This document shows, in pieces, positions 6,325 to 19,196 of a stretch of 25,993 bases of DNA. Every line of letters begins with the position of its first letter. Within the stretch, counting starts at the first letter, position 1. The notes under the pieces are model-generated. The model was not told the DNA's origin. It made no database searches and saw nothing but the letters and a program-made list of their open reading frames with translations. This DNA is from a virus, in the IMG/VR virus record IMGVR_UViG_3300031537_000008, positions 1-25,993 of that record; one strand, 5' to 3'. Position numbers and translations under genes: made by a program.

Positions 6325-6579
6325 ATGGAAACTTATAATTTTTTATTTAAAAATAAAGAAAAAATAGATTCTTTAAGAAATTATTTATATAACAATAATC
6401 TTACACTCGAAGAAATAGATAAAAGATTATATGAATTTAGTAAATATTTTTATCTTAAAGGAGTAGATCATGGAAGTAATTTAGAAAAAGAAACACAAGA
6501 AAAAATAAAAAATTTTATTAAGAAAAAAAGGAGTAAAATATTTAATGATATTTTTAATAAAATATTAAATAAAAAATGA
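6325..6579 (+). CDS. Hypothetical protein (84 aa)
   Basis: A small, strongly charged and helical protein with no recognised domain. It begins METYNFLFKNKEKIDSLRNY and ends with a Lys-rich tail. It starts 2 bp after the RHH stop codon, and its TGA overlaps the ATG of repeat protein copy 1 (ATGA), so it is translationally linked to both neighbours. Confidence 0.6.
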   Translation: METYNFLFKNKEKIDSLRNYLYNNNLTLEEIDKRLYEFSKYFYLKGVDHGSNLEKETQEKIKNFIKKKRSKIFNDIFNKILNKK

Positions 6580-7706
6580 AAAAAAGTGTAAAAAAAGAAA
6601 TCGAATTTTTAATCCAAGAATTGGATCTTAATTGCTCTGTTGAAGAATTTGAAGACAAAGTTAGTTGGATGCTTATATCTTTATCCCAAAATCTCTCTGA
6701 AGATTTTATCCTGGAGTTCAAAGATAAAGTTAATTGGATATTAATATCAGAATACCAAAAGCTTTCTGAAGAATTTATCCGGGAATTCAAAGATAAAGTT
6801 AATTGGGTATGTATATCTAAATACCAAAAACTTTCTGAAGAATTTATCCGGGAATTCAAAGATAAAGTTAATTGGAGATGGATATCTATATACCAAAAAC
6901 TTTCTGAAGGATTTATCAGGGAATTTAAAAACAAAGTTAATTGGGATTATATATCAATATATCAAAAGCTTTCTGAAGGGTTTATCAGAGAATTCCAAGA
7001 CAAAGTTGATTGGGAATATATATCTTCATCCAAAAAGCTTTCTGAAATTTTTATCCGGGAATTTAAAGATAAAGTTGATTGGAGATGTATATCTCAACAT
7101 CAAAAACTATCTGAAGATTTTATCCAGGAATTACAAGATAAAGTTATTTGGCTAAATATATCTGCATATCAAAAACTTTCGGAAAACTTTATTAGGGAAT
7201 TTAAAGACAAAGTTATTTGGGTATATATATCTGCATACCAAAAGCTATCAGAAGATTTTATCCGAGAATTCCAAAACAAAGTTAATTGGGATGATATATC
7301 TGCATACCAAAATCTTTCAGAAGGGTTTATACGGGAATTCAATTTAAAAATAGATCCAGGTAATTGGATTTATAAAGACAAAGGATTTAAGCTTAAAAAG
7401 ATAAAAGAAACAGGGCTTTATGAATTTTTAGATGCTGACCATATTTTGGCCTACAAGGGGATAAGATCTGATAGATATTCTAATTTTAACTTCCAATACC
7501 GGTATCTAAAAGGGGAAACATATGAATGCCACTGCGATTGCACAGATGATGAAAACTCCTTTGGCCTTTCTGCTTGGACAGAGGAAAAGGCAAGAAAACA
7601 TTGCAATGAACTAGTAATAAAAGTAAAAATAAATGTTGCCGATATCGGAAGGATAGTCCATGATGGCGGGAAACTTAGGTGCTTTAAATTTACTGTATTG
7701 GATTAA
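6576..7706 (+). CDS. 23-residue repeat protein, copy 1 (10 repeats)
   Basis: A 376-aa protein of a four-member family in this window. Residues 1-24 form a charged head (MKKSVKKEIEFLIQELDLNC...). Residues 25-254 are ten perfect-length 23-residue repeats, each built from FKDKV[ND]W, two variable residues, IS, one variable residue, YQKLSE, one variable residue and FIRE. Residues 255-376 form a tail with ILAYKGIRSDRY, FQYRYLKGETYECHCDC, SFGLSAWTEEKARKHC and IGRIVHDGGKLRC. The repeats look like a helical solenoid for binding a protein partner. The tail has the YKG...FQY...G..Y pattern I associate with the phage domain DUF7666, a tentative match. Variable positions cluster after the Trp and around the loop, as expected for a binding surface. 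Function unknown. Confidence 0.85.
   Translation: MKKSVKKEIEFLIQELDLNCSVEEFEDKVSWMLISLSQNLSEDFILEFKDKVNWILISEYQKLSEEFIREFKDKVNWVCISKYQKLSEEFIREFKDKVNWRWISIYQKLSEGFIREFKNKVNWDYISIYQKLSEGFIREFQDKVDWEYISSSKKLSEIFIREFKDKVDWRCISQHQKLSEDFIQELQDKVIWLNISAYQKLSENFIREFKDKVIWVYISAYQKLSEDFIREFQNKVNWDDISAYQNLSEGFIREFNLKIDPGNWIYKDKGFKLKKIKETGLYEFLDADHILAYKGIRSDRYSNFNFQYRYLKGETYECHCDCTDDENSFGLSAWTEEKARKHCNELVIKVKINVADIGRIVHDGGKLRCFKFTVLD
6648..7337 (+). repeat. Tandem 69-bp coding repeat, 10 units
   Basis: Ten consecutive in-frame 69-bp units in repeat protein copy 1, with no partial unit at either end. Many units share stretches such as CTTTCTGAAGAATTTATCCG. Confidence 0.9.
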
Positions 7707-7726
7707 TTATTAAATATAAAATTTAG

Positions 7727-7858
7727 ATGAATAAATTAAAATATAAAAATTATTTTGATAATCTTGATATAGATATGTCAAATAAATTTAAACCTATAGT
7801 TATTAATAAATCAAAGATTAATTATAATAATAAAATTATTATTAAAAATGAAAAATAA
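7727..7858 (+). CDS. Small hypothetical protein (43 aa)
   Basis: ATG at 7727, TAA at 7856-7858, overlapping the start of the methyltransferase gene by 11 bp. The peptide is Asn/Lys/Ile-rich (MNKLKYKNYFDNLDIDMSNK...). It has no domain. Its location between two tightly spaced genes and its overlap with the next start favour a real small gene, but composition bias makes this uncertain. Confidence 0.35.
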   Translation: MNKLKYKNYFDNLDIDMSNKFKPIVINKSKINYNNKIIIKNEK

Positions 7859-8342
7859 AATTATACATTATAGGGACGATTGGATGACCCCACCATCTTA
7901 TTATAATAAGCTTAATAAGATATATAATTTCGATTTTGATCCATGTCCATTTATGCATAATGTTGAAGAGTGGGATGGCCTTAAAATTGCATGGGGAAAA
8001 ATGAATTTTGTAAACCCACCTTATTCTTTAAAATTAAAAGTTGAATTTATAAAAAAAGCTTTGTTTGAATTTAATAATTTTAATAGAAAAAGTATATTTT
8101 TATTGCCAGTTTCCACAAGTACAAAAATTTTTCATAAACATTTAAAATATTTTCTTAATCCAATTAATGATTTTGTAGAAGGAAGAATCCCATTTATAGG
8201 ATGGAATTCAAAAGGCCAAATGGTAAATTGGGATCTTATTGGAAAAAATACTGATGATACAATTGAATATGATGGAAAAATTATACCTCTTCATATAAAA
8301 AATACTGGACAAACAGATAATATGATTATAAAGATCATATAA
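7848..8342 (+). CDS. DNA N6-adenine methyltransferase (phage Dam type)
   Basis: A 164-aa protein matching the phage DNA N-6-adenine-methyltransferase family (PF05869 type). It has DDWMTPP at residues 10-16, a DFDPCP segment at 29-34, and the catalytic FVNPPYS motif at 54-60 (the DPPY-type motif in NPPY form). It would transfer a methyl group from S-adenosylmethionine to adenine in phage DNA, protecting it from restriction or marking it for regulation. The target site is not predictable from sequence. It lies between two copies of the repeat-protein family; its start overlaps the preceding 43-aa ORF and the next gene begins 19 bp after its stop. Confidence 0.88.
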   Translation: MKNKIIHYRDDWMTPPSYYNKLNKIYNFDFDPCPFMHNVEEWDGLKIAWGKMNFVNPPYSLKLKVEFIKKALFEFNNFNRKSIFLLPVSTSTKIFHKHLKYFLNPINDFVEGRIPFIGWNSKGQMVNWDLIGKNTDDTIEYDGKIIPLHIKNTGQTDNMIIKII

Positions 8343-8361
8343 TAACAATTAAATTATAACC

Positions 8362-9354
8362 ATGAAAAAAAGTGTAAAAATAGAAATCGAATTTTTAATT
8401 AAAAAATTGGATCTTAATTGCTCTGTTGAAGAATTTAAAGACAAAGTTAATTGGGATTATATATTAGAATATCAAAAACTTTCTGAAGGGTTTATCAGAG
8501 AATTCCAAGATGAAGTTTATTGGGGATGTATATCAGAATTCCAAAAGCTCTCTGAAAACTTTATCCGGGAATTTCAAGACAAAGTTAATTGGTTTGATAT
8601 ATCTATATACCAAAAGCTATCTGAAAGTTTTATCAGGGAGTTCAAAAACAAAGTTAATTGGTATTATATCTCTGCATACCAAAAACTTTCCGAAAACTTT
8701 ATTATGGAATTTAAATACAAAGTTTATTGGTATTATATATCTAAATACCAAAATCTCTCTGAAGATTTTATCCGTGAGTTCAAAGATAGAGTTGATTGGT
8801 GGGATATATCTGAATACCAAAAGATTTCTGAAGGCTTTATCCGGGAATTTAAAAATGAAGTTTATTGGGAATGGATATCAAAATACCAAAAGCTATCAGA
8901 AGATTTTATCCGAGAATTTCAAGACAAAGTTGATTGGGATGATATATCAAAATATCAAAAGCTTTCAATAAGTTGTATCCGAGAATTCAATTTAAAAATA
9001 GATCCAGACAATTGGCTCTACAAGAATAAAAAGTTTAAACTTGAAAAAATAAAAAATACAGGGCTATATGAATTTCTTGATGCTGACCATATTTTGGCCT
9101 ATAAGGGGATAAGATCTGACCGGTATTCAAAATTTAACTTCCAGTACCAGTATTTAACAGGAGAAACATATGAATGCCACTGCGATTGCACAGATGAGGA
9201 AAATTCTTTTGGCCTTTCCGCCTGGACAGAAGAAAAGGCAAGAAAACACTGCGGGGAACTAGTAATAAAAGTCAAAATAAATGTTGCCGATATAGGTAGG
9301 ATCGTACATGATGGAGGGAAACTTAGGTGCTTTAAATTTACTGTAATCGATTAA
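8362..9354 (+). CDS. 23-residue repeat protein, copy 2 (8 repeats)
   Basis: A 330-aa family member with the same 24-residue head, eight 23-residue repeats (residues 25-208) and the 122-residue tail. The final repeat diverges to KLSISCIRE and is shared with copy 3, including the following FNLKIDPDNWLYK, showing that copies 2 and 3 are related at their repeat-tail junction. Repeats here use many aromatic residues at the variable positions (YY, WW, EW, FD). The leader TTAAATTATAACC directly before the ATG recurs before the RHH gene at 18187 and, in part, before copy 4. Function unknown. Confidence 0.85.
   Translation: MKKSVKIEIEFLIKKLDLNCSVEEFKDKVNWDYILEYQKLSEGFIREFQDEVYWGCISEFQKLSENFIREFQDKVNWFDISIYQKLSESFIREFKNKVNWYYISAYQKLSENFIMEFKYKVYWYYISKYQNLSEDFIREFKDRVDWWDISEYQKISEGFIREFKNEVYWEWISKYQKLSEDFIREFQDKVDWDDISKYQKLSISCIREFNLKIDPDNWLYKNKKFKLEKIKNTGLYEFLDADHILAYKGIRSDRYSKFNFQYQYLTGETYECHCDCTDEENSFGLSAWTEEKARKHCGELVIKVKINVADIGRIVHDGGKLRCFKFTVID
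8434..8985 (+). repeat. Tandem 69-bp coding repeat, 8 units
   Basis: Eight complete 69-bp units inside repeat protein copy 2, in frame, with no partial unit. Confidence 0.9.
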
Positions 9355-9377
9355 TAATTAAATTATATAAAATTAAT

Positions 9378-9809
9378 ATGAATTGGGGAAAGATAAGGAC
9401 TATAAATAGGCTAGCTATAGAAGATTTATGTAATTATCTTTCTTCAAAGTATTCTAAAAAATATGGTGTCCATAAAAATTGTTTTGTTTATATATATGAT
9501 CGTAATAGGGAAATTTCAGTATATACAGGATCAATAAATTTCTTTGTCCCGGATAACCATATTATGGATTATTTAAGCGAAATATGGAATATATATATAA
9601 ATATTATGTCAGATTTAAGGGAAAGTGAAGTAAAAAGATTTTATTTAATAAATTGGATGGAAAAAAAAGTTTTATATGCTACTGAACTAGAGGGCCCTTT
9701 TGATACTTATGATGAAGCATTAATAAGAGCATTTATGGATTGTTTTACAGTGATACAAAGAAAATTACGCACAAAAATTAATAAAAAAAATAAATATAAA
9801 AAAAAATAA
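9378..9809 (+). CDS. Hypothetical protein (143 aa)
   Basis: A mixed alpha/beta protein with no domain I can name. It has a segment GPFDTYDEALIRAFMDC near the C-terminus of the kind seen in many small phage proteins of unknown function, and a Lys-rich end. It is the last gene of the plus-strand operon, and its stop codon abuts the stop of the convergent gene at 9810 with no spacer. Confidence 0.65.
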   Translation: MNWGKIRTINRLAIEDLCNYLSSKYSKKYGVHKNCFVYIYDRNREISVYTGSINFFVPDNHIMDYLSEIWNIYINIMSDLRESEVKRFYLINWMEKKVLYATELEGPFDTYDEALIRAFMDCFTVIQRKLRTKINKKNKYKKK

Positions 9810-10085
9810 TTAATTAATAATTTTTGGTATTATTTCAATATAATCATTTTCTATATATATCCAATCACCACTTTCATTTATTGGAACCAAAGCTTCATAT
9901 GTATATCCTTTATCTATTATCAACCATTTTTGTAATATATTATTATAAACAATATCATCTATAAATATTGTAGTATTTTTTATTTGATAATATAAAGAAT
10001 CATAAGAAATAATAATATTCCCATCATCAAATATAGCTATATCTTCAAGATAAATATCTAATAATGGAATATATACTTTGTTCAT
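9810..10085 (-). CDS. Hypothetical protein (91 aa)
   Basis: A small beta-rich, acidic protein (MNKVYIPLLDIYLEDIAIFD...) with no recognised domain. It is the last gene of the long minus-strand operon and converges with the plus-strand operon end to end. Its start lies 3 bp after the stop of the upstream gene, so it is probably cotranslated with it. Confidence 0.6.
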   Translation of the reverse strand: MNKVYIPLLDIYLEDIAIFDDGNIIISYDSLYYQIKNTTIFIDDIVYNNILQKWLIIDKGYTYEALVPINESGDWIYIENDYIEIIPKIIN

Positions 10086-10088
10086 TAA

Positions 10089-10547
10089 TTAAAAATTATA
10101 TATTTTTAGTTCAAAGTTTTTTTCTCCAATAGTTTCTAAAGCAAGTTTTATACGTTCTTCAGGAACCATTGATAATTTATCTGTAGAATATAATGATCCA
10201 TATATAGATCTATCTCCTATGCATGAAAATCTTTGTGAAAAATTAACATTTTCATTATCTATTGTCAATATATTTCCAGATTTTGAAATTATTGCTTGAC
10301 ATGGAAAAAAATATTTTAATTGTTCAAATATAATTAAAGATAAATTTTCTATTGAAATATCTTCATTTATTATAATAGGTGATTTTAAAAGTTTAGAAAT
10401 AATATTAGGCTTTGCAATAATACACATAATATATGAACTAGATTTAGGGACTATAATAAATGAATATCCATATTGAACACCATTTTCATGTGTTGGTGCA
10501 GCAATATAAGTTTTTTCTTGATAATTTATAGCTATTATAAAATTCAT
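10089..10547 (-). CDS. Hypothetical protein, possible Ntn-hydrolase-like fold
   Basis: A 152-aa protein. The C-terminal part, FSCIGDRSIYGSLYSTDKL followed by PEERIKLALETIGE, resembles the segment of HslV/proteasome-type Ntn hydrolases where an IGSG-like turn precedes two helices. The N-terminus (MNFIIAINYQEKTYIAA) resembles their first strands, but there is no Thr, Ser or Cys at the position that would become the catalytic nucleophile. If the fold is right, the protein is probably inactive or structural. This is a pattern impression only; calling it a hypothetical protein is the safe choice. Confidence 0.55.
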   Translation of the reverse strand: MNFIIAINYQEKTYIAAPTHENGVQYGYSFIIVPKSSSYIMCIIAKPNIISKLLKSPIIINEDISIENLSLIIFEQLKYFFPCQAIISKSGNILTIDNENVNFSQRFSCIGDRSIYGSLYSTDKLSMVPEERIKLALETIGEKNFELKIYNF

Positions 10548-10569
10548 ATTTTTATTAAAATTAAAATTA

Positions 10570-10797
10570 TTAATATGCTTTTTCAGGTTTTCCTATTTTA
10601 ATTATACTTTCATAATCAAGATGTAAATTTCTTATTCCTTCTTTTTTTGATGATTTGTTTACATTAAATAAGATACCATCCCTATCGCTTGCTGTTATTT
10701 CACCGGTTATTATATTTTTATTTATTTTATTTTTTGATAAATAAGTAAGTTCTATTAATTTTCCTTTATAAGGCTTAATTTTTCTATTATTATACAT
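10570..10797 (-). CDS. Hypothetical protein (75 aa)
   Basis: A small basic protein with alternating hydrophobic residues (GKLIELTYLSKNKINKNI, ITGEITASDRDGILFNVN) suggestive of a small beta barrel. No family is recognised. It lies 19 bp downstream of repeat protein copy 3 in the same operon. Confidence 0.55.
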   Translation of the reverse strand: MYNNRKIKPYKGKLIELTYLSKNKINKNIITGEITASDRDGILFNVNKSSKKEGIRNLHLDYESIIKIGKPEKAY

Positions 10798-10816
10798 TAT
10801 TTTAAATTTAAAATTA

Positions 10817-12016
10817 TTAATCGATTACAGTAAATTTAGAGCACCTAAGTTTCCCTCCATCATGGACAATCCTTCCGATATCGGCAACATTTATTTTTAC
10901 TTTTATTACCAGTTCCCCGCAGTGTCCCCTTGCCTTTTCCTCCGTCCAGGCAGAAAGGCCAAAGGAGTTTTCATCATTTGTGCAATCGCAGTGGCACTCA
11001 TATGTTTCCCCTTTTAAATATTGGTACTGGAAGTTATAATAAGAATATCTGTCCGATCTTATCCCCTTGTAGGCCAATATGTGGTCAGCATCTAAAAATT
11101 CATAGAGCCCGGTATTTTTTATCTTTTCAAGTTTGAAGTTTTTATCTTTATAGAGCCAATTGTCTGGATCTATTTTTAAATTGAATTCCCGGATACAACT
11201 TATTGAAAGCTTTTGATATTTTGATATATCATCCCAATCAACTTTGTCTTGAAATTCTCGGATAAATTCTTCATAGAGCTTTTGATATTTTGATATACAA
11301 TACCAATTAACTTTGTCTTGGAATTCCCTGATAAAGTTTTCGGAGAGCTTTTGATATTTTGATATATCAAACCAATTAACTTTATCTTTGAACTCTCGGA
11401 TAAATTCTTCAGAAAGATTTTGAAATGCAGATATATTTCCCCAATCAACTTTATATTGAAATTCCCTAATAAAGTTTTCGGAAAGTTTTTGGTATATAGA
11501 TATACATATCCAATTAACTTTGTTTTTGAACTTCCTGATAAATCCTTCAGAAAGATTTTGATATTTTGATATACAATACCAACTAACTTTGTCTTGAAAT
11601 TCCCTGATAAATCCTTCATAAATATTTTGATATTCTGATATATAATACCAATCAACTCTATCTTTGAACTCCCGGATAAAGTTTTCTGAAAGTTTTTGTG
11701 ATTGAGATATCCAAAACCAATCAACTTTATTTTTAAATTCTCGGATAAAACTTTCAGATAGCTTTTGGTGTATAGATATCCATCTCCAATTAACTCTATC
11801 TTGAAATTCACGGATAAAATCTTCAGAGAGATTTTGGTTTTTTGATATATCATACCAACTAACTTCATGTTTTAATTCCCGCATAAATTCTTCAGAAAGA
11901 ATTTGGTATACAGATATAGATCTACAATCAACTATGTCTTTAAATTCTTTAACAGAGCAATCAAGATCCAATTCTTGGATTAAAAATTCGATTTCTTCTT
12001 TTACACTTTTTTTCAT
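10817..12016 (-). CDS. 23-residue repeat protein, copy 3 (11 repeats)
   Basis: The longest family member at 399 aa: 24-residue head, eleven 23-residue repeats (residues 25-277) and the 122-residue tail with the conserved Cys residues (YECHCDC, HCGELVIKV, KLRCSKF). The first repeat is degenerate (the usual W is C, in VDCRSIS). Repeats 3-4 are nearly identical, at DNA level too, to repeats 2-3 of copy 4. The last repeat matches copy 2 instead. The gene therefore looks like a mosaic of the other copies. It lies just downstream of the DnaA-IV-like gene in the replication operon. Function unknown. Confidence 0.85.
   Translation of the reverse strand: MKKSVKEEIEFLIQELDLDCSVKEFKDIVDCRSISVYQILSEEFMRELKHEVSWYDISKNQNLSEDFIREFQDRVNWRWISIHQKLSESFIREFKNKVDWFWISQSQKLSENFIREFKDRVDWYYISEYQNIYEGFIREFQDKVSWYCISKYQNLSEGFIRKFKNKVNWICISIYQKLSENFIREFQYKVDWGNISAFQNLSEEFIREFKDKVNWFDISKYQKLSENFIREFQDKVNWYCISKYQKLYEEFIREFQDKVDWDDISKYQKLSISCIREFNLKIDPDNWLYKDKNFKLEKIKNTGLYEFLDADHILAYKGIRSDRYSYYNFQYQYLKGETYECHCDCTNDENSFGLSAWTEEKARGHCGELVIKVKINVADIGRIVHDGGKLRCSKFTVID
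11186..11944 (-). repeat. Tandem 69-bp coding repeat, 11 units
   Basis: Eleven complete 69-bp units in repeat protein copy 3. Positions 11662-11809 are 146/148 identical to 18911-19058 in copy 4. Confidence 0.9.
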
Positions 12017-12027
12017 GGTTTTTTCAT

Positions 12028-12456
12028 TTAAGTTAATTGAGATAACATATTATTTATATTAATTGACAAATTAATATTACAATTTTTATATATTGTTTTT
12101 TTTATATTATTTATTATTTTTTTATTATCAATAATATTATAATTTTTTAATAAAAAAATATTTAATGCTTTTTTATAAATAAAATTATATTTTTCTTTAT
12201 ATTCAAATTCTATTTCACAGAATTTTAATATATTTTTTTTTGCATGTAAAATAGTTGCATGATCTTTATCAAAAAATATAGCTACTTCTCTAAGGGATAC
12301 CTTTTTTTTATATAATAAATATGTTATCCACATTGTCCATTGCCTAGCTTGTACATATTCCGTTTTTTTTGTTTTAAAAGATTTTTCATAATTTATATCT
12401 AATTCTTTACATATCATTTTATGTAATTTTTCCATAAATAAATAAAGATTTTCCAT
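12028..12456 (-). CDS. DnaA domain IV-like DNA-binding protein
   Basis: A 142-aa protein whose residues 35-80 match the C-terminal DNA-binding domain of the initiator DnaA. They show VQARQWTMWITYLL for the basic-loop/helix region, SLREVAIFFDKDHATILHA for the helix-turn-helix, and the DnaA signature form DKDHATILHAKKNI. The AAA+ ATPase and the other DnaA domains are absent. By analogy it could bind DnaA-box-like sites to steer or block replication initiation or to regulate transcription. It sits directly downstream of dnaB, which supports a replication role. The C-terminal 60 residues are Asn/Ile/Lys-rich and featureless. An alternative start is the internal Met at residue 8. Confidence 0.75.
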   Translation of the reverse strand: MENLYLFMEKLHKMICKELDINYEKSFKTKKTEYVQARQWTMWITYLLYKKKVSLREVAIFFDKDHATILHAKKNILKFCEIEFEYKEKYNFIYKKALNIFLLKNYNIIDNKKIINNIKKTIYKNCNINLSININNMLSQLT

Positions 12457-12618
12457 ATTATATATTTTTAAGATTAAAATATTTTATTTATTAAAAGTTA
12501 ATAATCATTAAACCTTAACCATTTTAGTTTCGGTGTTGTTTTGTTTTTTTTTTTCATCGTTTACAATATTTTAATATGTTAGTGTTTCAAATCCCAAACG
12601 GGTCATATACGTATCACG
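12457..12618. other. Noncoding gap between dnaB and the DnaA-IV-like gene
   Basis: 162 bp with only very short ORFs. It holds the palindrome ATACGTAT at about 12607-12614 and an oligo-pyrimidine run near 12540. The gap is long for this operon, so it may contain an internal promoter or binding site for the adjacent DnaA-IV-like protein, but no convincing motif is visible. Confidence 0.3.
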
Positions 12619-13998
12619 TTAAAACTCCACTTTATTATATTTATCATTAAATTCATCAAAATCAGATATTTTTGTAAAATTATGATCGTGTTTTAACTTT
12701 ATATCACCAAGTTTTCCGTTTCTATATTTTCTAAATAATATTTCTAAAATACCTTTTGTGCTCATACCATCTTCAAACTCGGTAAAACCATAATAACTTG
12801 GCCTATATAAAAAAGATACTATATCAGCATCTTGTTCTATTGCACCACTTTCACGTATATCAGATAATTGAGGCTTTTTATCAATTCTTGATTCACAAGA
12901 ACGGTTTAATTGTGACAAAGCAATAATAGGTATATCAAGTTCTTTTGCCAAAATTTTTAAATTTCTACTTATATCGCTTACTTCTTGTTCCCTATTTCCC
13001 TTATTATTTGAATATATTAATTGAAGATAATCAATAAATATTATTTTTATATTATGTTTAATTTTTAACCTTCTTGCTTTTGCCCTTAATTCTAAAATTG
13101 TCATATTACTTGTATCATCTATAAAAAGGGAAGCCTTTTCTAATTTAGCTTGTGCCTCTTCTACTTTTAACCATTCATCAGAAGTAAACTTACCATTCAT
13201 ATATTTTTCTGATTCTATACCAGTCAATGAACTGTTTCCTTTTTTATATAGTTCTACTTTGCTCATTTCATATGAAAAATAGGCTACAGGTTCTTTAAAT
13301 ATTAAAGATATATTTATGGCCATTTGAAAAGCTAAAGTAGTTTTTCCCATTGATGGACGTGCTGCTATTATTATTAAATTTGTATTTTGCCACCCATTTG
13401 TATGTTTATCAAGATTTGATATACCTGTTTGTATTCCAGGTACATAATTGTCATTAATTGATAGCTCTTCTAAATTTCTTATTGTATCTATACCAATATT
13501 TCCAATTAATACAGGTTCGTTTATTATATTTTTATTGGTAATATTAAAAATACAGTTCCCTGCATAATCCAATGTATCAGATAAATCAATACTTTCATCA
13601 AATGCCCTATTTTGTATTTCTGTAGATACCCTTATCAATTCCCTTTGTATATATTTTTGTTGTATTATACGGGCATGGAATTCAATATGTGCGGCAGATG
13701 CAATCCTATCTGTCAATTTAGTAAGATAAGCTGGCCCACCTACTAATCCTAAATATCCATTTTTCCTTAATTGTTCTATAACTGTAAGTATATCAATTGC
13801 TTCATTTTTCTTAAATAAATCAAGTATTGAAGAATATATTTTTTGATGTTGGTCATGATAAAAACTTTCTGGCCTTATAATATCTATTATTTCTATCAAA
13901 GAATCTTTTTCTAACATTATGCCACCTAATACAGCTTCTTCTAAATCAATAGCCTGTGGGGGTATTTTACCAAATCCAATTTCTATGTTTTTGTTCAT
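12619..13998 (-). CDS. dnaB: Replicative DNA helicase DnaB
   Basis: A 459-aa hexameric 5'-3' fork helicase. The N-terminal DnaB domain (PPQAIDLEEAVLGGIML at about 13-29) is followed by the RecA-like motor: Walker A ARPSMGKTTLA at 213-223, the FSYEMS segment near 241-246, Walker B IIFIDYLQLI at 319-328, SQLNR at 362-366, and DIRESGAIEQDADIV at 380-394. Length is normal for the family. It lies downstream of the putative initiator and of a small HTH gene. It would be recruited to the origin by the initiator's C-terminal region; no separate DnaC-type loader is seen in the window. Confidence 0.96.
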   Translation of the reverse strand: MNKNIEIGFGKIPPQAIDLEEAVLGGIMLEKDSLIEIIDIIRPESFYHDQHQKIYSSILDLFKKNEAIDILTVIEQLRKNGYLGLVGGPAYLTKLTDRIASAAHIEFHARIIQQKYIQRELIRVSTEIQNRAFDESIDLSDTLDYAGNCIFNITNKNIINEPVLIGNIGIDTIRNLEELSINDNYVPGIQTGISNLDKHTNGWQNTNLIIIAARPSMGKTTLAFQMAINISLIFKEPVAYFSYEMSKVELYKKGNSSLTGIESEKYMNGKFTSDEWLKVEEAQAKLEKASLFIDDTSNMTILELRAKARRLKIKHNIKIIFIDYLQLIYSNNKGNREQEVSDISRNLKILAKELDIPIIALSQLNRSCESRIDKKPQLSDIRESGAIEQDADIVSFLYRPSYYGFTEFEDGMSTKGILEILFRKYRNGKLGDIKLKHDHNFTKISDFDEFNDKYNKVEF

Positions 13999-14054
13999 GT
14001 ATTTAAAAAAAAATTTATTTATTTAAATTAAAAAAAATACCGGGCATACAACAT

Positions 14055-14225
14055 TTAAATTTCAAAATTTTCTTTTATAAATTTATTTAACGGTTCTTCC
14101 CATTTTTTTGATAATTTTTGAACCCCGTTTACTGCTTTTATCAACGTACTGTCAGGCATGTTTAATTCTTGTTCAATAGCACGAATTTTCACAAACTTTT
14201 TATTTTTTTTTAACCAATCAAGCAT
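14055..14225 (-). CDS. Small helix-turn-helix protein (56 aa)
   Basis: A minus-strand ORF from ATG 14225 to TAA 14055. It begins MLDWLKKNKKFVKIRAIEQE and continues LNMPDSTLIKAVNGVQKLS, which reads as a compact helix-turn-helix (IRAIEQELNMPDSTLIKAV). The tail contains KKWEEPLNKFIKENFEI. A well-formed Bacteroidota-type promoter lies 25 bp upstream, so the gene probably heads a transcript that continues into dnaB. Likely a DNA-binding regulator; target unknown. Confidence 0.65.
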   Translation of the reverse strand: MLDWLKKNKKFVKIRAIEQELNMPDSTLIKAVNGVQKLSKKWEEPLNKFIKENFEI

Positions 14226-14250
14226 TTTATTTATTTTTTTTATTAATCAT

Positions 14251-14282
14251 CAAATTTATGGATAATTAAAATATAATCCAAA
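14251..14282 (-). promoter_or_regulatory. Bacteroidota-type promoter for the HTH-dnaB transcript
   Basis: On the minus strand TTTG (14282-14279) is followed after 20 bp by TAAATTTG (14258-14251), matching the -33 TTTG and -7 TAnnTTTG elements of Bacteroidota promoters, whose usual spacing is about 17-23 bp. The -7 element ends 25 bp before the ATG at 14225. Confidence 0.6.
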
Positions 14283-14317
14283 TTATAAGATATATATTTT
14301 TATTAATTTATTTAAAA

Positions 14318-15082
14318 TCATTGCTGCCCTGGATATCTTAATGTAGGTACTTTAGTAGGCAATTTATTTTGGATATAATCTTCTTTTTTTAGCGGATAAA
14401 AATCAGTCCATCCAGAATCTACTGTTTTTACAAGTATTTTAAGTGCTATTGAATAATCATTATTTGAATATTCTTTTATTTTGTTTAATTGTGATTTTTT
14501 TGCACGGGAAGTTAATGAAGCTTTCTTTTTTTGTTTTAAAGGCAAAAATTCATTTATCCAAATGTTTTTAAATTCATCTTTAAAAAAATCAAAATTTTCA
14601 TAAATTTCAATGTCTTTTATTTGATCATTAGTATTAGGATCTATATTAGTATTATAATACTCACAATTTTCGTTGAGAGGGCCCTCACAATTTTCGTTGA
14701 GAGGGGCTCTCAATTTTCGTTGAGAGGTGTCAATTTTCGTTGAGAGGTAATTATCAATTTTTATTAGCATATTCCAATTGATCCCAGTTTTATAATAACT
14801 CTTCCCCAATTCTTTTGATTTCGGGTGCCTTTCTAATATTTTATAATTTATAAGATTATTGATCCTATTGATAATCCCGGTTTTTGTTTTTATTTTTAGA
14901 ATAGGCATATCATTAATAACTTTTGTATGCGATATCCAAAACCATATCCCATCGTTATCAGTATATTTATCTGAAGAAGGATAAAAGTTACAGATATAAT
15001 CAAATATTGCCAAATCAATTATATCTAGTTTAGGAAAATAAGTTTCACTTGCAATTTGATTTATGTTTATGAAATAATTCAT
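14318..15082 (-). CDS. Replication initiator / replisome organizer
   Basis: A 254-aa protein with an N-terminal winged-helix-like domain (about residues 1-105, including LDIIDLAIFDYICNFYP and GIINRINNLINYKILERHP). A low-complexity linker at 112-141 follows. The C-terminal helical domain (about 165-232) has YSIALKILVKTVDSGWTDFYP, a pattern typical of phage replisome organizers and DnaD/lambda-O-like proteins that contact the helicase. The DNA encoding the linker carries four 17-bp iterons, the same arrangement as in lambda gene O. The gene lies upstream of dnaB in the same direction. It would bind the iterons and deliver DnaB. Exact family placement needs a profile search. Confidence 0.75.
   Translation of the reverse strand: MNYFININQIASETYFPKLDIIDLAIFDYICNFYPSSDKYTDNDGIWFWISHTKVINDMPILKIKTKTGIINRINNLINYKILERHPKSKELGKSYYKTGINWNMLIKIDNYLSTKIDTSQRKLRAPLNENCEGPLNENCEYYNTNIDPNTNDQIKDIEIYENFDFFKDEFKNIWINEFLPLKQKKKASLTSRAKKSQLNKIKEYSNNDYSIALKILVKTVDSGWTDFYPLKKEDYIQNKLPTKVPTLRYPGQQ
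14664..14747. repeat. Four 17-bp iterons, candidate replication origin
   Basis: The sequence CAATTTTCGTTGAGAGG occurs four times without mismatch at 14664-14680, 14688-14704, 14711-14727 and 14731-14747, with start-to-start distances of 24, 23 and 20 bp. All copies are in the same orientation and lie inside the initiator gene. The copies are read in three different frames of the protein (LSTKID, TSQRKL, and PLNENCE twice), so it is the DNA sequence that repeats, not a peptide. AT-rich DNA follows at about 14540-14660, a plausible unwinding element. Confidence 0.8.
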
Positions 15083-15235
15083 TATTTTAATTTTAAATAT
15101 TTAACATTTTTTTTCTTAATTGTATTTTGTTTTTAAACTTTATATTTAAAATATGCCTATTTGTTATTTTAATGTATCATATTAAAGACTTTATTGTGTT
15201 TTTATAGTCATGGTTAACTTTTATATTAAAACGTC

Positions 15236-15451
15236 TTATTTCGTCTTATTTTGATTAATATATGGATCGTATTTTTTATAATCAATTTTAGTCTCATAAA
15301 TTATTTTACTCCCCAATTTTTTGTGTATTTCTTCATGTATAGGTTTTAAACAATCATAACAAAGATCATAATCCATAAATTTGTTATAAAATTTTTTACC
15401 ACACTTTTCGCAGTACCTTATTTCTTGATATAATTTGTTTTTAACGCCCAT
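15236..15451 (-). CDS. Small zinc-ribbon-like protein (71 aa)
   Basis: The N-terminal half contains CEKC (residues 14-17) and CYDC (residues 31-34), a spacing expected for a single zinc-binding ribbon, followed by a Lys-rich tail ending NQNKTK. Such small proteins can bind nucleic acid or protein; no specific role is visible. It lies downstream of a structured intergenic element and upstream of the initiator, separated from the latter by 153 bp of noncoding AT-rich DNA. Confidence 0.65.
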   Translation of the reverse strand: MGVKNKLYQEIRYCEKCGKKFYNKFMDYDLCYDCLKPIHEEIHKKLGSKIIYETKIDYKKYDPYINQNKTK

Positions 15452-15480
15452 AGGTATTTTTATAAATGTAACCTGAAAAA

Positions 15481-15576
15481 TAGCCCACCTAAAAATGATC
15501 TATTTCGAACGACCGCCTCTATTACAGATATTTGAATGGGCTATTGGTTGATCCTGCGTTCTCAGAAGGTGGGCTA
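15481..15576. other. 96-bp element bounded by 10-bp perfect inverted repeats
   Basis: TAGCCCACCT (15481-15490) and AGGTGGGCTA (15567-15576) are exact inverted repeats enclosing 76 bp. The segment is richer in G+C than its surroundings. A third copy of TGGGCTA at 15537-15543 could pair with the left arm instead, giving two mutually exclusive stems. On the minus strand, the strand of the neighbouring genes, the 3' arm is followed by TTTTT (15480-15476), as in a terminator. No tRNA, riboswitch or other family could be recognised. Alternatives are a structured leader of the zinc-ribbon gene, an attenuator, a small noncoding RNA, or a miniature insertion with TA ends. Confidence 0.6.
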
Positions 15577-15584
15577 ATAATATA

Positions 15585-16439
15585 CTAGTTTTGTAAAAAT
15601 ATTTTTGAAATATCTTCTACCTGAAACCCAGCAGCTTTTTTATGCCCACCACCGCCATTTGATTTGGCAATTACAGAGCAATCAATTTCATCTTTTGTAG
15701 TATAAAGAGAAATATTCCATTTCTTCCCATCAAATTGAAACGGCATCATAATATCATGTTTGCTTTCATCGTAAACGCTTTTAAAAACATCCGAATTAAA
15801 CCCACCCCCATTTAAGCAAATTGCACGCAATCCATTAAATTCTGTTTCAAAAGATGCTTTTTTACATTGTAATTCGTTTACTTGGGATTGGTATTTCAAT
15901 ATTGTCAACCCTTCATTAATTATTTGCTTAACCAAAGCTTCGTTTTCAAAAACTTCCACAGGGAATGAATCAACACTATTACAATAAATTCGCATTCCGA
16001 ACTGGAAAGGAAGTATTTCGTTTTCCCACCTTTGTTTATCAGAATTTCGCCAAGTATCATATTCACCAAGTAATTTAACAGCATATGGCATTTGTTTTTC
16101 CGGGAATAAATGCTTCCAAGTACCTTCACATGCTGCAATTCCATTTTCTAAAACAGCATGGAAAAAACTTTCACCATTTCCAACAAATTCTTTGTAGTCA
16201 TTTATGGCTGAAATATGATGATCTATCCATGTAAGTTTCCAATTGCTCAATTGTGCTATTTTAACCATAGTTTTCATCGGAAGTGAAACATCTGCCATAA
16301 TAATAGCTTCACCAGTTACTTCTTGTTTAAATGGCTGTCCGTAATCATATCCAATCATTTTTGCTTCTGGATATTTTAATTTAATAATTGCCCCACTTGT
16401 GAAGCCGTCTAAATCTTTGTTGTGATAAATACCAATCAT
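15585..16439 (-). CDS. DHH-family phosphoesterase (NrnB-like)
   Basis: A 284-aa member of the DHH/DHHA1 phosphoesterase superfamily. Metal-binding motifs are HNKDLDG at 6-12, ADVS at 49-52, DHH at 73-75 and GEYDTW at 125-130; the C-terminal DHHA1 motif is NGGGGHKKAAGF at 261-272. Relatives such as NrnB degrade nanoRNAs or cyclic-dinucleotide products. In a phage it could recycle short RNA or remove a nucleotide signal used by host defence; the latter is speculation. Its codon use differs from the neighbours, with Ile mostly ATT rather than ATA, suggesting separate acquisition. It starts 11 bp after the stop of the upstream gene. Confidence 0.85.
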   Translation of the reverse strand: MIGIYHNKDLDGFTSGAIIKLKYPEAKMIGYDYGQPFKQEVTGEAIIMADVSLPMKTMVKIAQLSNWKLTWIDHHISAINDYKEFVGNGESFFHAVLENGIAACEGTWKHLFPEKQMPYAVKLLGEYDTWRNSDKQRWENEILPFQFGMRIYCNSVDSFPVEVFENEALVKQIINEGLTILKYQSQVNELQCKKASFETEFNGLRAICLNGGGFNSDVFKSVYDESKHDIMMPFQFDGKKWNISLYTTKDEIDCSVIAKSNGGGGHKKAAGFQVEDISKIFLQN

Positions 16440-16450
16440 TTTATATATTT

Positions 16451-16774
16451 TTAATTTGTTAAATTATTTAGTAATTCTTTTGCTTTGGTAAACTGTTCTT
16501 CTGTTCTTAAATTTCTTATGATAGAAAATATTTCATATATTTCATCTGCATCTGTTTCGTGAAGTTCTTCTGCTTTTTCCCCATAACTATATCTTATAGC
16601 CTCTAACCATTTATTCCTAAATTTTTCCCCAAATTTTAGATATCTGTTAAATGTTTGTTTTACTTCTTTTGTAATAGAATTATTCCCAATTAGTTCTGAT
16701 AATAATCTTTGGCTTACTTCTTGTACCACCAATATTGAAGTAAATATTTCATTGTTTTTTTTATCTTGTTTCAT
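16451..16774 (-). CDS. Hypothetical helical protein (107 aa)
   Basis: An all-helical, soluble protein (ILVVQEVSQRLLSELIGNNS, then FNRYLKFGEKFRNKWLEAIR) without a recognised domain. Its ATG overlaps the stop of the upstream coiled-coil gene (ATGA), so the two are translationally coupled. Confidence 0.6.
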   Translation of the reverse strand: MKQDKKNNEIFTSILVVQEVSQRLLSELIGNNSITKEVKQTFNRYLKFGEKFRNKWLEAIRYSYGEKAEELHETDADEIYEIFSIIRNLRTEEQFTKAKELLNNLTN

Positions 16775-17040
16775 AATTCATATGATTTACACCATTTTGC
16801 ATTTATACTAACATTAATTTTAAATAGGCTACAATATCCATTATTGTAATTTATACAATTTCTACAAGAAATTTCTTTTTGTAAAATATTAATTGCTAAT
16901 TGATATTCTTTTATTTTTTCTTTTTCATTTTTAATTACAGATTTTACCATATGATTTTTATCTATAATTTTTTCCCAACTATCAAGTTCTTTTTTAGTTG
17001 ATTCAATAGCAATTTTTAATATGGATATTGAATTTTTCAT
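16771..17040 (-). CDS. Coiled-coil protein with C-terminal Cys cluster (89 aa)
   Basis: The N-terminal part is a predicted coiled coil ending in IKEYQLAINILQKEI. The C-terminal 32 residues hold four cysteines, CRNC (58-61), C68 and C81 before a KSYEL end, a pattern common in small phage proteins and likely to bind one zinc. The coiled-coil part is related to that of the adjacent upstream gene (IKEYKLAINILE), so the pair arose by duplication. Its start overlaps the stop of that gene by 4 bp. Confidence 0.6.
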   Translation of the reverse strand: MKNSISILKIAIESTKKELDSWEKIIDKNHMVKSVIKNEKEKIKEYQLAINILQKEISCRNCINYNNGYCSLFKINVSINAKWCKSYEL

Positions 17041-17222
17041 TTATTGTTTATATCTTGCCAGAATTCTAATATATTTATGGCCAATTTATATTCTTTTATC
17101 ATTTTATTTTTTAAGGAAAGTTCTTTTTCATAATTTGATATAGGAGGAACATAATTTTTAATTTCTTCTTCCAAACATTTTAGTTCTAATTTAAGGCTCA
17201 AAATTGGTGAATTAAATTTCAT
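17037..17222 (-). CDS. Small coiled-coil protein (61 aa)
   Basis: A paralogue of the N-terminal half of the downstream gene: a Leu/Glu/Lys helix with IKEYKLAINILE, but lacking the cysteine cluster. It overlaps that gene by 4 bp (ATGA). Function unknown; the shared helix could allow the two products to form a heterodimer. Confidence 0.55.
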   Translation of the reverse strand: MKFNSPILSLKLELKCLEEEIKNYVPPISNYEKELSLKNKMIKEYKLAINILEFWQDINNK

Positions 17223-17244
17223 GATAAAATATTATTAATTTTTT

Positions 17245-17955
17245 TTAAAAAATACCTATACTAAAATCAACATCATTTATATTTTTTAATCCTTTTTCAA
17301 CTAATTTTAATTGTTTATTATAATAATCCTTCATTGCAATTAATTGTTCTTTGCTAAATTTATAGCTCTTTAATTCATTTTTTCTTTCATTTAGGTTATT
17401 ATATCTTTCAACCCCTATCCTTTCAATTAATCCGTCCCTAAACCCGTTTTCATTGCCATGGCCATATTTATTACAATATTTTAATTGCCCAAAAACATTG
17501 TCAGGATGAAATATCAATCCAATATATAATTCAGCTTTAAAAAAATGTCCTGCATCATAATCTGAAATATTGAATGGCAATTGTTTATTGCAACAAATAC
17601 ATTTTTTACCATGATCACGTATCCTAATTAATTTTTGAAATGGTTTCCTGGCTTCTTGTATACATGATGCAATTGTTTTATTTTCAAGTTTTTTGTTTTT
17701 ATTTTCAAGTTTTTTGTTTTTATTTTCAAGTTTTTTATTCTTATCAGCTCTTTTTTTTCCTAATAATTTAGATTTTTCTAAAATTATTTTACCTTCAGAT
17801 GTTTCCAATAACCATTTTGTATAACATCCACATGATATTCCTAATCCATATTTGAAATTAGGCTTATTATATTTAATTTTAGGTATAGATTTGTTACACC
17901 CTTTATAATTTTTTGCTTTACCAATGCCTTTTTTACATATTTTATAATTTATCAT
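17245..17955 (-). CDS. ninG: NinG/Rap recombination nuclease
   Basis: A 236-aa protein resembling the lambda NinG (Rap) family, structure-specific endonucleases that act on Holliday junctions and D-loops during phage recombination. The signature is a zinc/HNH-like core: CICCNKQLPF (119-128), the catalytic-type DAGHFF (134-139), FHPDNVFGQLKYCN (149-162), and NGFRDGLIERIG (170-181). An N-terminal Cys-containing segment (ISCGCYTKWLLETSEG) matches the family's usual beginning. A Lys/Glu linker at about 73-93 contains three copies of KKLENKN encoded by a 21-bp tandem repeat. It lies among replication and recombination genes, as in lambdoid phages. Confidence 0.85.
   Translation of the reverse strand: MINYKICKKGIGKAKNYKGCNKSIPKIKYNKPNFKYGLGISCGCYTKWLLETSEGKIILEKSKLLGKKRADKNKKLENKNKKLENKNKKLENKTIASCIQEARKPFQKLIRIRDHGKKCICCNKQLPFNISDYDAGHFFKAELYIGLIFHPDNVFGQLKYCNKYGHGNENGFRDGLIERIGVERYNNLNERKNELKSYKFSKEQLIAMKDYYNKQLKLVEKGLKNINDVDFSIGIF
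17680..17742. repeat. 21-bp tandem repeat, 3 units, within ninG
   Basis: ATTTTCAAGTTTTTTG followed by TTTTT is repeated at 17680-17700 and 17701-17721, with a slightly diverged third unit at 17722-17742. It encodes three KKLENKN units in the NinG linker. Being 21 bp long, gain or loss of a unit keeps the frame. Confidence 0.85.
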
Positions 17956-17977
17956 ATTAATTTATTTGATTATATTT

Positions 17978-18187
17978 TTAAGTAAAAATAAAATTAATTG
18001 TCTGTTCGTACCCTTCATCAGATCTAATAATAATTTGTTTCCCGTTATTTTTTTGTTCTAAAATTGTTTTAGCTATCTCGATAGCCGAAGCAATAACTCT
18101 TGTACGATTTGATTCTCCAATCATTTTGCTTAAAATGTCAACATTGTTTAGTGTTCGTTCACTAAAATTCATTGATACTTTTTTCAT
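17978..18187 (-). CDS. Ribbon-helix-helix DNA-binding protein (69 aa)
   Basis: MKKVSMNFSERTLNNVDILS followed by GESNRTRVIASAIEIAKTIL is a clear CopG/Arc-type pattern: a short strand, a first helix, the turn NRTR, and a second helix. The C-terminal 20 residues form a possible extra strand pair (KQIIIRSDEGYEQTINFIF). It likely acts as a dimeric repressor. Its leader TTAAATTATAACC before the ATG is the same as that of repeat protein copy 2, and it lies directly downstream of copy 4, so it may have travelled with a duplicated family unit. Confidence 0.75.
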   Translation of the reverse strand: MKKVSMNFSERTLNNVDILSKMIGESNRTRVIASAIEIAKTILEQKNNGKQIIIRSDEGYEQTINFIFT

Positions 18188-18203
18188 GGTTATAATTTAA
18201 TTA

Positions 18204-19196
18204 TTAATCGATTACAGTAAATTTAGAGCATCGTAATTTCCCGCCATTGTGGACAATCCTGCCTATATCGGAAATATTTATTTTGACTTTTATTACTAGT
18301 TCATTGCAGTGTTTTCTTGCCTTTTCCTCTGTCCAGGCAGAAAGGCCAAAAGAATTTTCTGAACTTGTACAATCGCAGTGGCACTCATATGTTCCCCCTT
18401 TTAGATACTGGTACTGGAAATTAAATTTTGAATACCGGTCAGATCTTATTCCCTTGTAGGCCAATATATGGTCAGCATCAAGAAATTCATAGATCCCGGT
18501 TTCTTTTATCTTTTTAAGCTTAAATTCTTTGTCTTTATAAATCCAATTACCTGGATCTATTTTTAAATTGAATTCCAGGATAAATCCTTCTGAAAGCTTT
18601 TGGTATGAAAATATACATCCCCAATCAACTTTGTCTTTGAATTCCCTGATAAATCCTTCAGATAGCTTTTGAAATTTAGATATACATCCCCAATTAACTT
18701 TTTCTTTGAACTCCCTGATAAAGCCTTCGGAAAGCTTTTGAAATTTAGATATATATTCCCAATCAACTCTATCTTTTAATTCTCGGATAAAATCTTCAGA
18801 AAGCTTTTTTGATTGAGATATCCATTCCCAATCAACTTTGTTTTGAAATTCCCGGATAAAGTTTTCGGAAAGCTTTTGATATGCAGATATATTCATCCAA
18901 TCAACTTTGTCTTTGAACTCCCGGATAAAGTTTTCTGAAAGTTTTTGTGATTGAGATATCCAAAACCAATCAACTTTATTTTTAAATTCTCGGATAAAAC
19001 TTTCAGAAAGTTTTTGGTGTATAGATATCCATCTCCAATTAACTCTATCTTGAAATTCCCGCATAAATTCTTCAGAAAGAATTTGGTATACAGAGATATG
19101 ATACCAATCAACTTTGTCTTTAAATTCTTCAACAGAGCAATTAAGCTCCAAATCTTTTATTAAAGAAACAATTTCTTTTTTTACACTTTTTTTCAT
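18204..19196 (-). CDS. 23-residue repeat protein, copy 4 (8 repeats)
   Basis: A 330-aa family member: 24-residue head (more diverged, MKKSVKKEIVSLIKDLELNC), eight repeats (25-208) and the conserved tail, in which NVADIGR becomes NISDIGR. Repeats 2-3 share a nearly identical DNA block with repeats 3-4 of copy 3. The 3' flank (TAATCGATTAATAATTAAAT) is shared with copy 2, so duplication extends beyond the reading frame. It sits between the nuclease-FtsK gene and an RHH gene. Function unknown. Confidence 0.85.
   Translation of the reverse strand: MKKSVKKEIVSLIKDLELNCSVEEFKDKVDWYHISVYQILSEEFMREFQDRVNWRWISIHQKLSESFIREFKNKVDWFWISQSQKLSENFIREFKDKVDWMNISAYQKLSENFIREFQNKVDWEWISQSKKLSEDFIRELKDRVDWEYISKFQKLSEGFIREFKEKVNWGCISKFQKLSEGFIREFKDKVDWGCIFSYQKLSEGFILEFNLKIDPGNWIYKDKEFKLKKIKETGIYEFLDADHILAYKGIRSDRYSKFNFQYQYLKGGTYECHCDCTSSENSFGLSAWTEEKARKHCNELVIKVKINISDIGRIVHNGGKLRCSKFTVID
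18573..19124 (-). repeat. Tandem 69-bp coding repeat, 8 units
   Basis: Eight complete 69-bp units in repeat protein copy 4. The block 18911-19058 matches 11662-11809 of copy 3 with two mismatches in 148 bp. Confidence 0.9.

Follow-up and report, generated by a model that had tools for sequence, protein, structure and literature searches.

The window analysed here is the whole of positions 1 to 25,993 of the virus record IMGVR_UViG_3300031537_000008 (25,993 bases), and it carries four genes, called copies A to D, in which an array of 23-residue repeats is joined to a constant tail. Comparison with a sister contig shows that strain-level differences are confined largely to these four genes, and that phages nearly identical elsewhere have strongly different arrays. 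The favoured explanation, given a probability of roughly 55%, is that the four genes encode diversifying, phage-made protein-binding solenoids on a constant rIIB-like module, probably serving conflict with the host or with rival phages. On present evidence the gene family is unusually fast-changing. The strain-level array differences, the name of the repeat family and the likeness of the tail to the C-terminal domain of rIIB are new beyond the first-pass annotation, a model's reading of the letters of the window.

Architecture of the repeat genes

The four open reading frames (ORFs) encode proteins of 376, 330, 399 and 330 amino acids, each equal to 24 + 23n + 122 residues with n = 10, 8, 11 and 8.

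6576..7706, plus strand: copy A; head 6576-6647, ten 69-bp repeats 6648-7337, tail 7338-7703
8362..9354, plus strand: copy B (structure predicted); head 8362-8433, eight repeats 8434-8985, tail 8986-9351
10817..12016, minus strand: copy C; head 11945-12016, eleven repeats 11186-11944, tail 10820-11185
18204..19196, minus strand: copy D; head 19125-19196, eight repeats 18573-19124, tail 18207-18572

The first-pass annotation had described this anatomy, with a head of 24 residues, exact repeats numbering 10, 8, 11 and 8 and a tail of 122 residues, and every coordinate and strand was confirmed. The 37 repeats of the window contain no indels, and the 69-bp period was recovered independently by Tandem Repeats Finder. 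The tails of copies B, C and D are 89-90% identical to that of copy A. A match of copy D to DUF2204 (E 6.9e-5, 23 bits against a cut-off of 20.3) was discounted, since repetitive sequence probably produced it by chance; it begins in the head and repeats of D, is weak on C (0.011) and is lacking on A and B.

Divergence between nearly identical phages

The sister contig IMGVR_UViG_3300031371_000015 (G001) is collinear with the window. Outside the repeat genes, 19 of 20 ORFs align and differ at 41 of 11,829 sites (0.35%; 99.65% identity), a count that excludes the ORF at 17978-18187 and covers only 718 bases of the gene at 19206-21329. The four repeat genes differ at 430 of 4,317 sites (10.0%), an odds ratio of 32 relative to the other ORFs, while three intervening stretches show no difference over 655, 1,462 and 510 bases. 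The excluded small ORF has no blastn match in G001 and was therefore apparently replaced together with copy D.

The form of the divergence varies from copy to copy. Copy A has 2 differences in its array and 32 in its tail. In copy B, the first four repeats are swapped for five others, bringing the array from 8 to 9, and the last four repeats and the tail are 97-100% identical. Copy C diverges from repeat 6 to its end, and copy D is different throughout, with 8 versus 9 repeats, a head 86% identical and a tail 83% identical. The replaced blocks of G001 (repeats in lower case) resemble one another in order, with b1/d1, b4/d4/c6 and b5/d5/c7 at 86-93%, and within the window C3-C4 matches D2-D3, and B8 matches C11, at 97-100%. 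This ordered likeness and these matches suggest exchange between copies. The longest exact runs shared by the window arrays are 98 nucleotides for C/D and 77 for B/C, and 24-36 for the other four pairs. G001 (L108/L112) also carries, at contig positions 16335-17573, about 1.24 kb that is missing from the window at about 12526; the minus-strand ORF in this insert presumably resembles an ASCH-type protein.

Elevated divergence was also found in contigs of other sample numbers. At locus L113, there are 36 differences in 229 bases of the gene versus 60 in 2275 of the flank, and at L008 there are 196 in 1131 versus 20 in 495 and 32 in 1033 in the neighbouring genes. Within a gene of 21 repeats compared between L011 and L016, 0-18 differences were counted per 69 bases, with mostly 0-3 in the flanks; the flank exceptions are three bins of 7, 13 and 17, the last of which falls in a second small repeat ORF.

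A predicted solenoid with a few variable positions

AlphaFold2 with 30 aligned sequences confidently predicts that the array of copy B is a solenoid of two short helices per repeat (predicted local distance difference test, pLDDT, 93.8; predicted template modelling score, pTM, 0.86). In the model, each of the eight units has helices at repeat residues 7-13 and 18-23, with an alpha/beta tail after the array, in keeping with the modular solenoid that the first-pass annotation had expected. Foldseek against the Protein Data Bank gave nothing better than E 0.25 for the whole model, and sequence searches against solved structures gave nothing convincing (best E 0.086; ATP synthase subunit b at E 0.13; none in a third search).

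Variation within the repeat is concentrated at a few positions. Across the window and G001 the highest entropies are at positions 8, 12, 9 and 19, as anticipated by the earlier remark that residues after the conserved Trp vary over a constant scaffold. In 5 of 7 phage groups, variability is highest at positions 8, 9 and 12; the exceptions are L011/L016, where position 19 stands slightly above 9, and phage G, where 12 is surpassed by positions 4 and 15. For these three positions, the ratio of nonsynonymous to synonymous polymorphism (pN/pS) is 3.33 in the window and G001 (95% bootstrap 2.66-4.33), against 0.23 outside 8, 9, 12 and 19, ratios that are rough, with repeats taken from some loci only and pS near saturation. 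The value of 3.33 is biased upward because the positions were chosen on the window, so that the six other groups provide the fairer test; there the ratio exceeds 1 in three groups (L017/L009, 1.56, 1.19-2.10; L021/L022, 1.28, 1.09-1.49; the phage G contig L030, 1.38, 1.09-2.03), is about 1 in two and lies below 1 in one. Outside 8, 9, 12 and 19 it is 0.22-0.53 across all seven groups. Phe, Trp, Tyr, His and Cys make up 36% of residues at positions 8, 9 and 12 of the 37 window repeats versus 20% elsewhere.

The placement of these residues was assessed by a helical-wheel argument from rounded entropies rather than from model coordinates. For helix 1, tested over positions 7-14, the variability vector points to 153-168 degrees in all seven groups (W7 at 0), opposite W7, I10, S11 and Q14, and for helix 2 the face test gives p below 0.05 in 3 of 7 groups. 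This supports a position of the variable residues mostly on one side of helix 1, away from the conserved Trp and Ile.

A named repeat family with many copies

The window repeats are members of the tryptophan repeat gene family (phrog_3532), a viral family that already has a name and is annotated as of unknown function; a profile search recovered it for all four proteins (E 1.3e-68 to 3.6e-98). Like the named members, the proteins have tandem 23-residue repeats with a nearly invariant Trp, and they resemble those members in sequence and fold. In tblastn with copy B (E 1e-5), 9 of 50,697 phage records match, none of them over 80% of the query. They include two records of Bacillus phage G, as well as Listeria phage LPJP1 and Bacillus phage BpSp, the annotation of which reads 'tryptophan repeat gene family protein'; the matches to four Gram-negative jumbo phages lie at 28-31%. 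In BFVD, the best match of the copy B model is entomopoxvirus MSV027 (E 3.8e-24, 47% identity), alongside phage G gp563 (E 5.3e-23), gp558, gp560 and gp562 and proteins of pitho-, orpheo- and marseilleviruses. The family name appears in print (PMC3901692, PMC6669658, PMC7728225), with no function stated in the available portions of these papers, one of which reports an entomopoxvirus member, AMV254, with an F-box (PMC7728225). A Pfam search of the window proteins (E up to 1) lists no F-box for any of the four, and a literature search on the family recognised no functional study. In ten repeat proteins of other phages, additional domains appeared only below cut-offs.

Relatives of copy B are encoded at 49 loci of viral contigs and relatives of the tail at 34. 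With identical sequences collapsed, as was also done before the entropy, pN/pS, charge and triplet counts, repeats are present as well in 46 of 54 ORFs with a tail match; this is not a count of independent genes, because overlapping loci, such as L065 and L010, may hold one gene twice. Of the remaining eight, three are proteins of the rIIB type and five are fragments, short or broken. Tail matches number 6 in G003, 8 in G004, 3 in G006, 1 each in G005 and G010, 4 in G008 (two with a stop), 3 in G009 (one decayed) and 4 in G011 (two weak). Several are thus found in 6 of the 8 chosen records, and the isolates phage G, BpSp and LPJP1 carry many repeat genes per genome, which bears out the expectation of similar multi-copy families in related phages. 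The repeat and predicted fold are the same in these isolates. Unlike their members, the window genes end in the DUF7666/rIIB-like tail, of which no match was found in the examined stretches of the three genomes. Among genome contigs, 1 of 35 pattern matches to the tail encodes a relative, on a Clostridium metagenome-assembled genome (MAG) contig.

The constant tail

The tail had been likened to the phage domain DUF7666 (PF24703) in the first-pass annotation, a resemblance that holds at a distance and through relatives. None of the four window proteins matches DUF7666 directly at E up to 1, and two window tails searched alone match no Pfam family at E up to 10; across the 43 aligned tails, 16 match it at E up to 1, the best at E 2.5e-7. 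On these profiles, the tail holds as a distant relative of DUF7666. The conserved Cys that had been noted is a local feature only, with Cys at tail positions 64, 66, 68, 89 and 115 in 19, 16, 15, 25 and 29 of the 43 tails. DUF7666 itself occurs in 3 of 299 genomes of one phylum, and in all three proteins (L117, L118, L119) Ala/Trp-rich repeats come after it, so that here too a constant domain adjoins a run of repeats.

The tail is probably also a relative of the C-terminal domain of rIIB. By hhalign, its profile aligns to rIIB of Klebsiella phage Magnus (88%) and to gp21 of Vibrio phage Bakedbeans (92%), which is hypothetical by annotation and has a layout similar to the rIIB type. Five named rIIB-type rows were obtained from BFVD (E 5e-7 to 2e-6). 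Over all phage records, tblastn of the tail gave nothing better than E 2; among 40 listed of the 51 records matched at E 2-7, 28 are rIIB-named and 12 hypothetical or unannotated, many of the records being near-copies from one Klebsiella phage group.

This likeness raises a rather unlikely alternative, in which the proteins would be rIIB-like factors for lysis control or rival exclusion, the tail acting as it does in rIIB and the array replacing the DNA-binding domains and aiming the tail. It draws on the similarity of the tail and on the significant N-terminal helix-turn-helix (HTH) matches in 3 of the 4 rIIB-type proteins scanned (XacN1 giving weak ones only), at the place where the window proteins have repeats. 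Unlike rIIB, the four window proteins show no HTH match (Pfam, E up to 1), and their tail is joined to a repeat array.

In structure, the tail leans weakly towards the ADP-ribosyltransferase (ART) fold. Modelled alone from 43 sequences, it is predicted with a pLDDT of 95.2. The full-length model compared with solved structures gives KptA as its best match (Z 5.6); for the tail alone (VIA), the top row is an uncharacterised protein at Z 5.5 and poly(ADP-ribose) polymerase (PARP) domains reach Z 4.4. PARP appears by title in 42 of 50 rows among the matches listed for the tail alone, KptA not being among them, and Foldseek reaches E 0.043 at best for this fold. As the Z values are modest, and those below 8 may reflect merely a common arrangement, the fold is treated as a lead. 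CNFy domain 4, the Tre toxins and 6kyf also have the ART fold. At the presumed H/R - Y/S - E places the tail has K40, S78 and K117, the equivalence of positions being inferred from strand order. The expected Glu is missing from the last strands (tail positions 112-120) in 42 of 43 tails.

Interpretation and alternatives

In the favoured reading of protein-binding solenoids, the two-helix, 23-residue units would combine a constant scaffold of W7, I10, L16, F20 and I21 with a variable outer ridge, formed by positions 8, 9, 12 and partly 19, that would contact partners, most likely proteins. The contig comparison shows that the arrays of closely related phages differ by replaced repeat blocks and, at the ridge, by point changes. 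To judge from the shared blocks, the likely cause would be exchange, both among the copies and with other phages, with changing partners driving the diversity, and the constant tail may serve as a shared anchor or effector. What the set recognises would most likely be host factors that vary, or else products made by rival phages, in the manner of counter-defence or exclusion. The diversified set of binding proteins that the first-pass annotation had envisaged is thus partly supported, by the predicted solenoid and by the diversity among copies and strains.

The nearest working analogy is the receptor array of the Podospora HNWD genes, which are of unrelated fold and organism, so that the analogy is one of possible mechanism only. 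The available portion of one study describes, for the WD40 arrays of the NOD-like receptors (NLRs) HET-D and HET-E, near-identical repeats in concerted evolution, a few hypervariable sites under diversifying selection, and length polymorphism next to a constant neighbouring domain (PMC12222747). A more specific proposal is put forward tentatively, namely that several solenoid genes exchange blocks with one another and between strains and so give nearly clonal phages different binding specificities, on a constant, enzymatically dead ART-like module shared with rIIB, as a counterpart of variable immune-receptor arrays that would be directed at changeable host defences or at competitor phages.

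Several observations weigh against the solenoid reading. Positions 8, 9 and 12 were picked on the window itself, and the repeats of the six other groups were gathered by a pattern limiting nine scaffold positions, not 8, 9, 12 or 19. The pN/pS at 8, 9 and 12 is indistinguishable from 1 in L011/L016 (1.11, 0.88-1.48) and LPJP1 (1.05, 0.83-1.41) and below 1 in L010 (0.89, 0.78-0.99). The variable residues had been expected on one face of the solenoid; the common direction in helix 1 agrees with this, but no group taken alone reaches significance in the face test for that helix (p 0.08-0.13). The hhalign result is uneven, with 30% for XacN1 rIIB and 68% for Magnus when a larger alignment is used. 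The tail-bearing form is found in viral contigs and the one MAG contig, and because the isolate records carry repeats without a significant tail match, no isolate is known to join the tail to an array. Decayed tails occur among relatives (G008, G009); absence of the family from related phages with signs of decay had been named as a possible refutation, and what was found is a family present overall with decayed copies in some relatives. Finally, the comparisons rest on assembled contigs, and tandem-repeat blocks can be swapped by metagenome assembly; any single array may contain such an error.

An improbable alternative is that the genes are dispensable and their tandem repeats nearly neutral, churning by recombination without a role. 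Such dispensability would fit the stops and decay in tails of G008 and G009 and the lack of copy B in L008, where 37 bases separate the Dam gene from the next ORF. It fits poorly with the purifying selection outside positions 8, 9, 12 and 19 in all seven groups and with the state of the genes, since all eight copies of the window and G001 are intact and in register. L008 also holds, at 1372-2592, an IS605 OrfB/TnpB gene between the gene in the copy A position and the Dam gene.

Little probability is likewise given to the differences from G001 arising largely from short-read assembly that switched among repeats, copies or strains. The 69-bp repeats and the exact runs of up to 98 nucleotides common to copies would allow such switching, and the replaced blocks adjoin long identical stretches where an assembler could switch. 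Repeats b1-b5 of G001, however, match no window repeat above 87% and are therefore the sequence of some other array, not rearranged window repeats; the elevated divergence at L113, L008 and L011/L016 in other samples also speaks against this explanation.

TALE repeats are two-helix units with two adjacent variable residues, a feature that the arrays share, and residues 8 and 9 covary, their mutual information of 1.32 exceeding that of every one of 1000 shuffles (mean 0.83, maximum 1.16), but sequence-reading nucleic-acid binders like TALE or PUF with a code at 8, 9 and 12 are very improbable, as the eight arrays of the window and G001 are neutral to acidic (net charge -7 to 0, isoelectric point 4.9-7.0) and 32 different triplets at 8/9/12 and 23 different pairs at 8/9 in 37 repeats are many for a base code, so that charge and counts reveal neither a basic surface nor a small recurring residue code.

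Genome context

The window encodes a terminase large subunit (phrog_6681, E 1.8e-50) together with a DnaB helicase, a single-stranded DNA-binding protein (SSB), a dCMP deaminase, an RNA ligase, a Dam methyltransferase and a resolvase-type recombinase, and this gene content makes it part of a tailed-phage genome. Further features are as follows.

8351..8361, plus strand: AT-rich leader AAATTATAACC, an 11-mer abutting the ATG of copy B
17978..18187, minus strand: small ORF downstream of copy D, preceded by the same leader
19206-21329, minus strand: fusion of a PD-(D/E)XK nuclease and an FtsK/HerA-type ATPase, 707 amino acids

The leader has exact matches at 8351 (plus), 19207 (minus) and 18198 (minus), that is, before copies B and D and the ORF after D. 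RNA folding of four gene ends did not find a terminator-like structure (z 0.16 to 1.83), and PADLOC gave nothing meaningful (one match, at E 0.027). A tandem repeat of about 24 bp (89% matches) at 14660-14748, within the ORF 14318-15082, encodes LNENCE-like repeated residues.

Significance

Among large viruses, of eukaryotes as well as of bacteria, the repeat family is widespread; no function was found for it. The replacement of repeats at strain level and the concentration of change on a few surface-type positions suggest a recognition surface under pressure. The link between the tail and rIIB may help with a very old question, the role of the C-terminal domain of rIIB.

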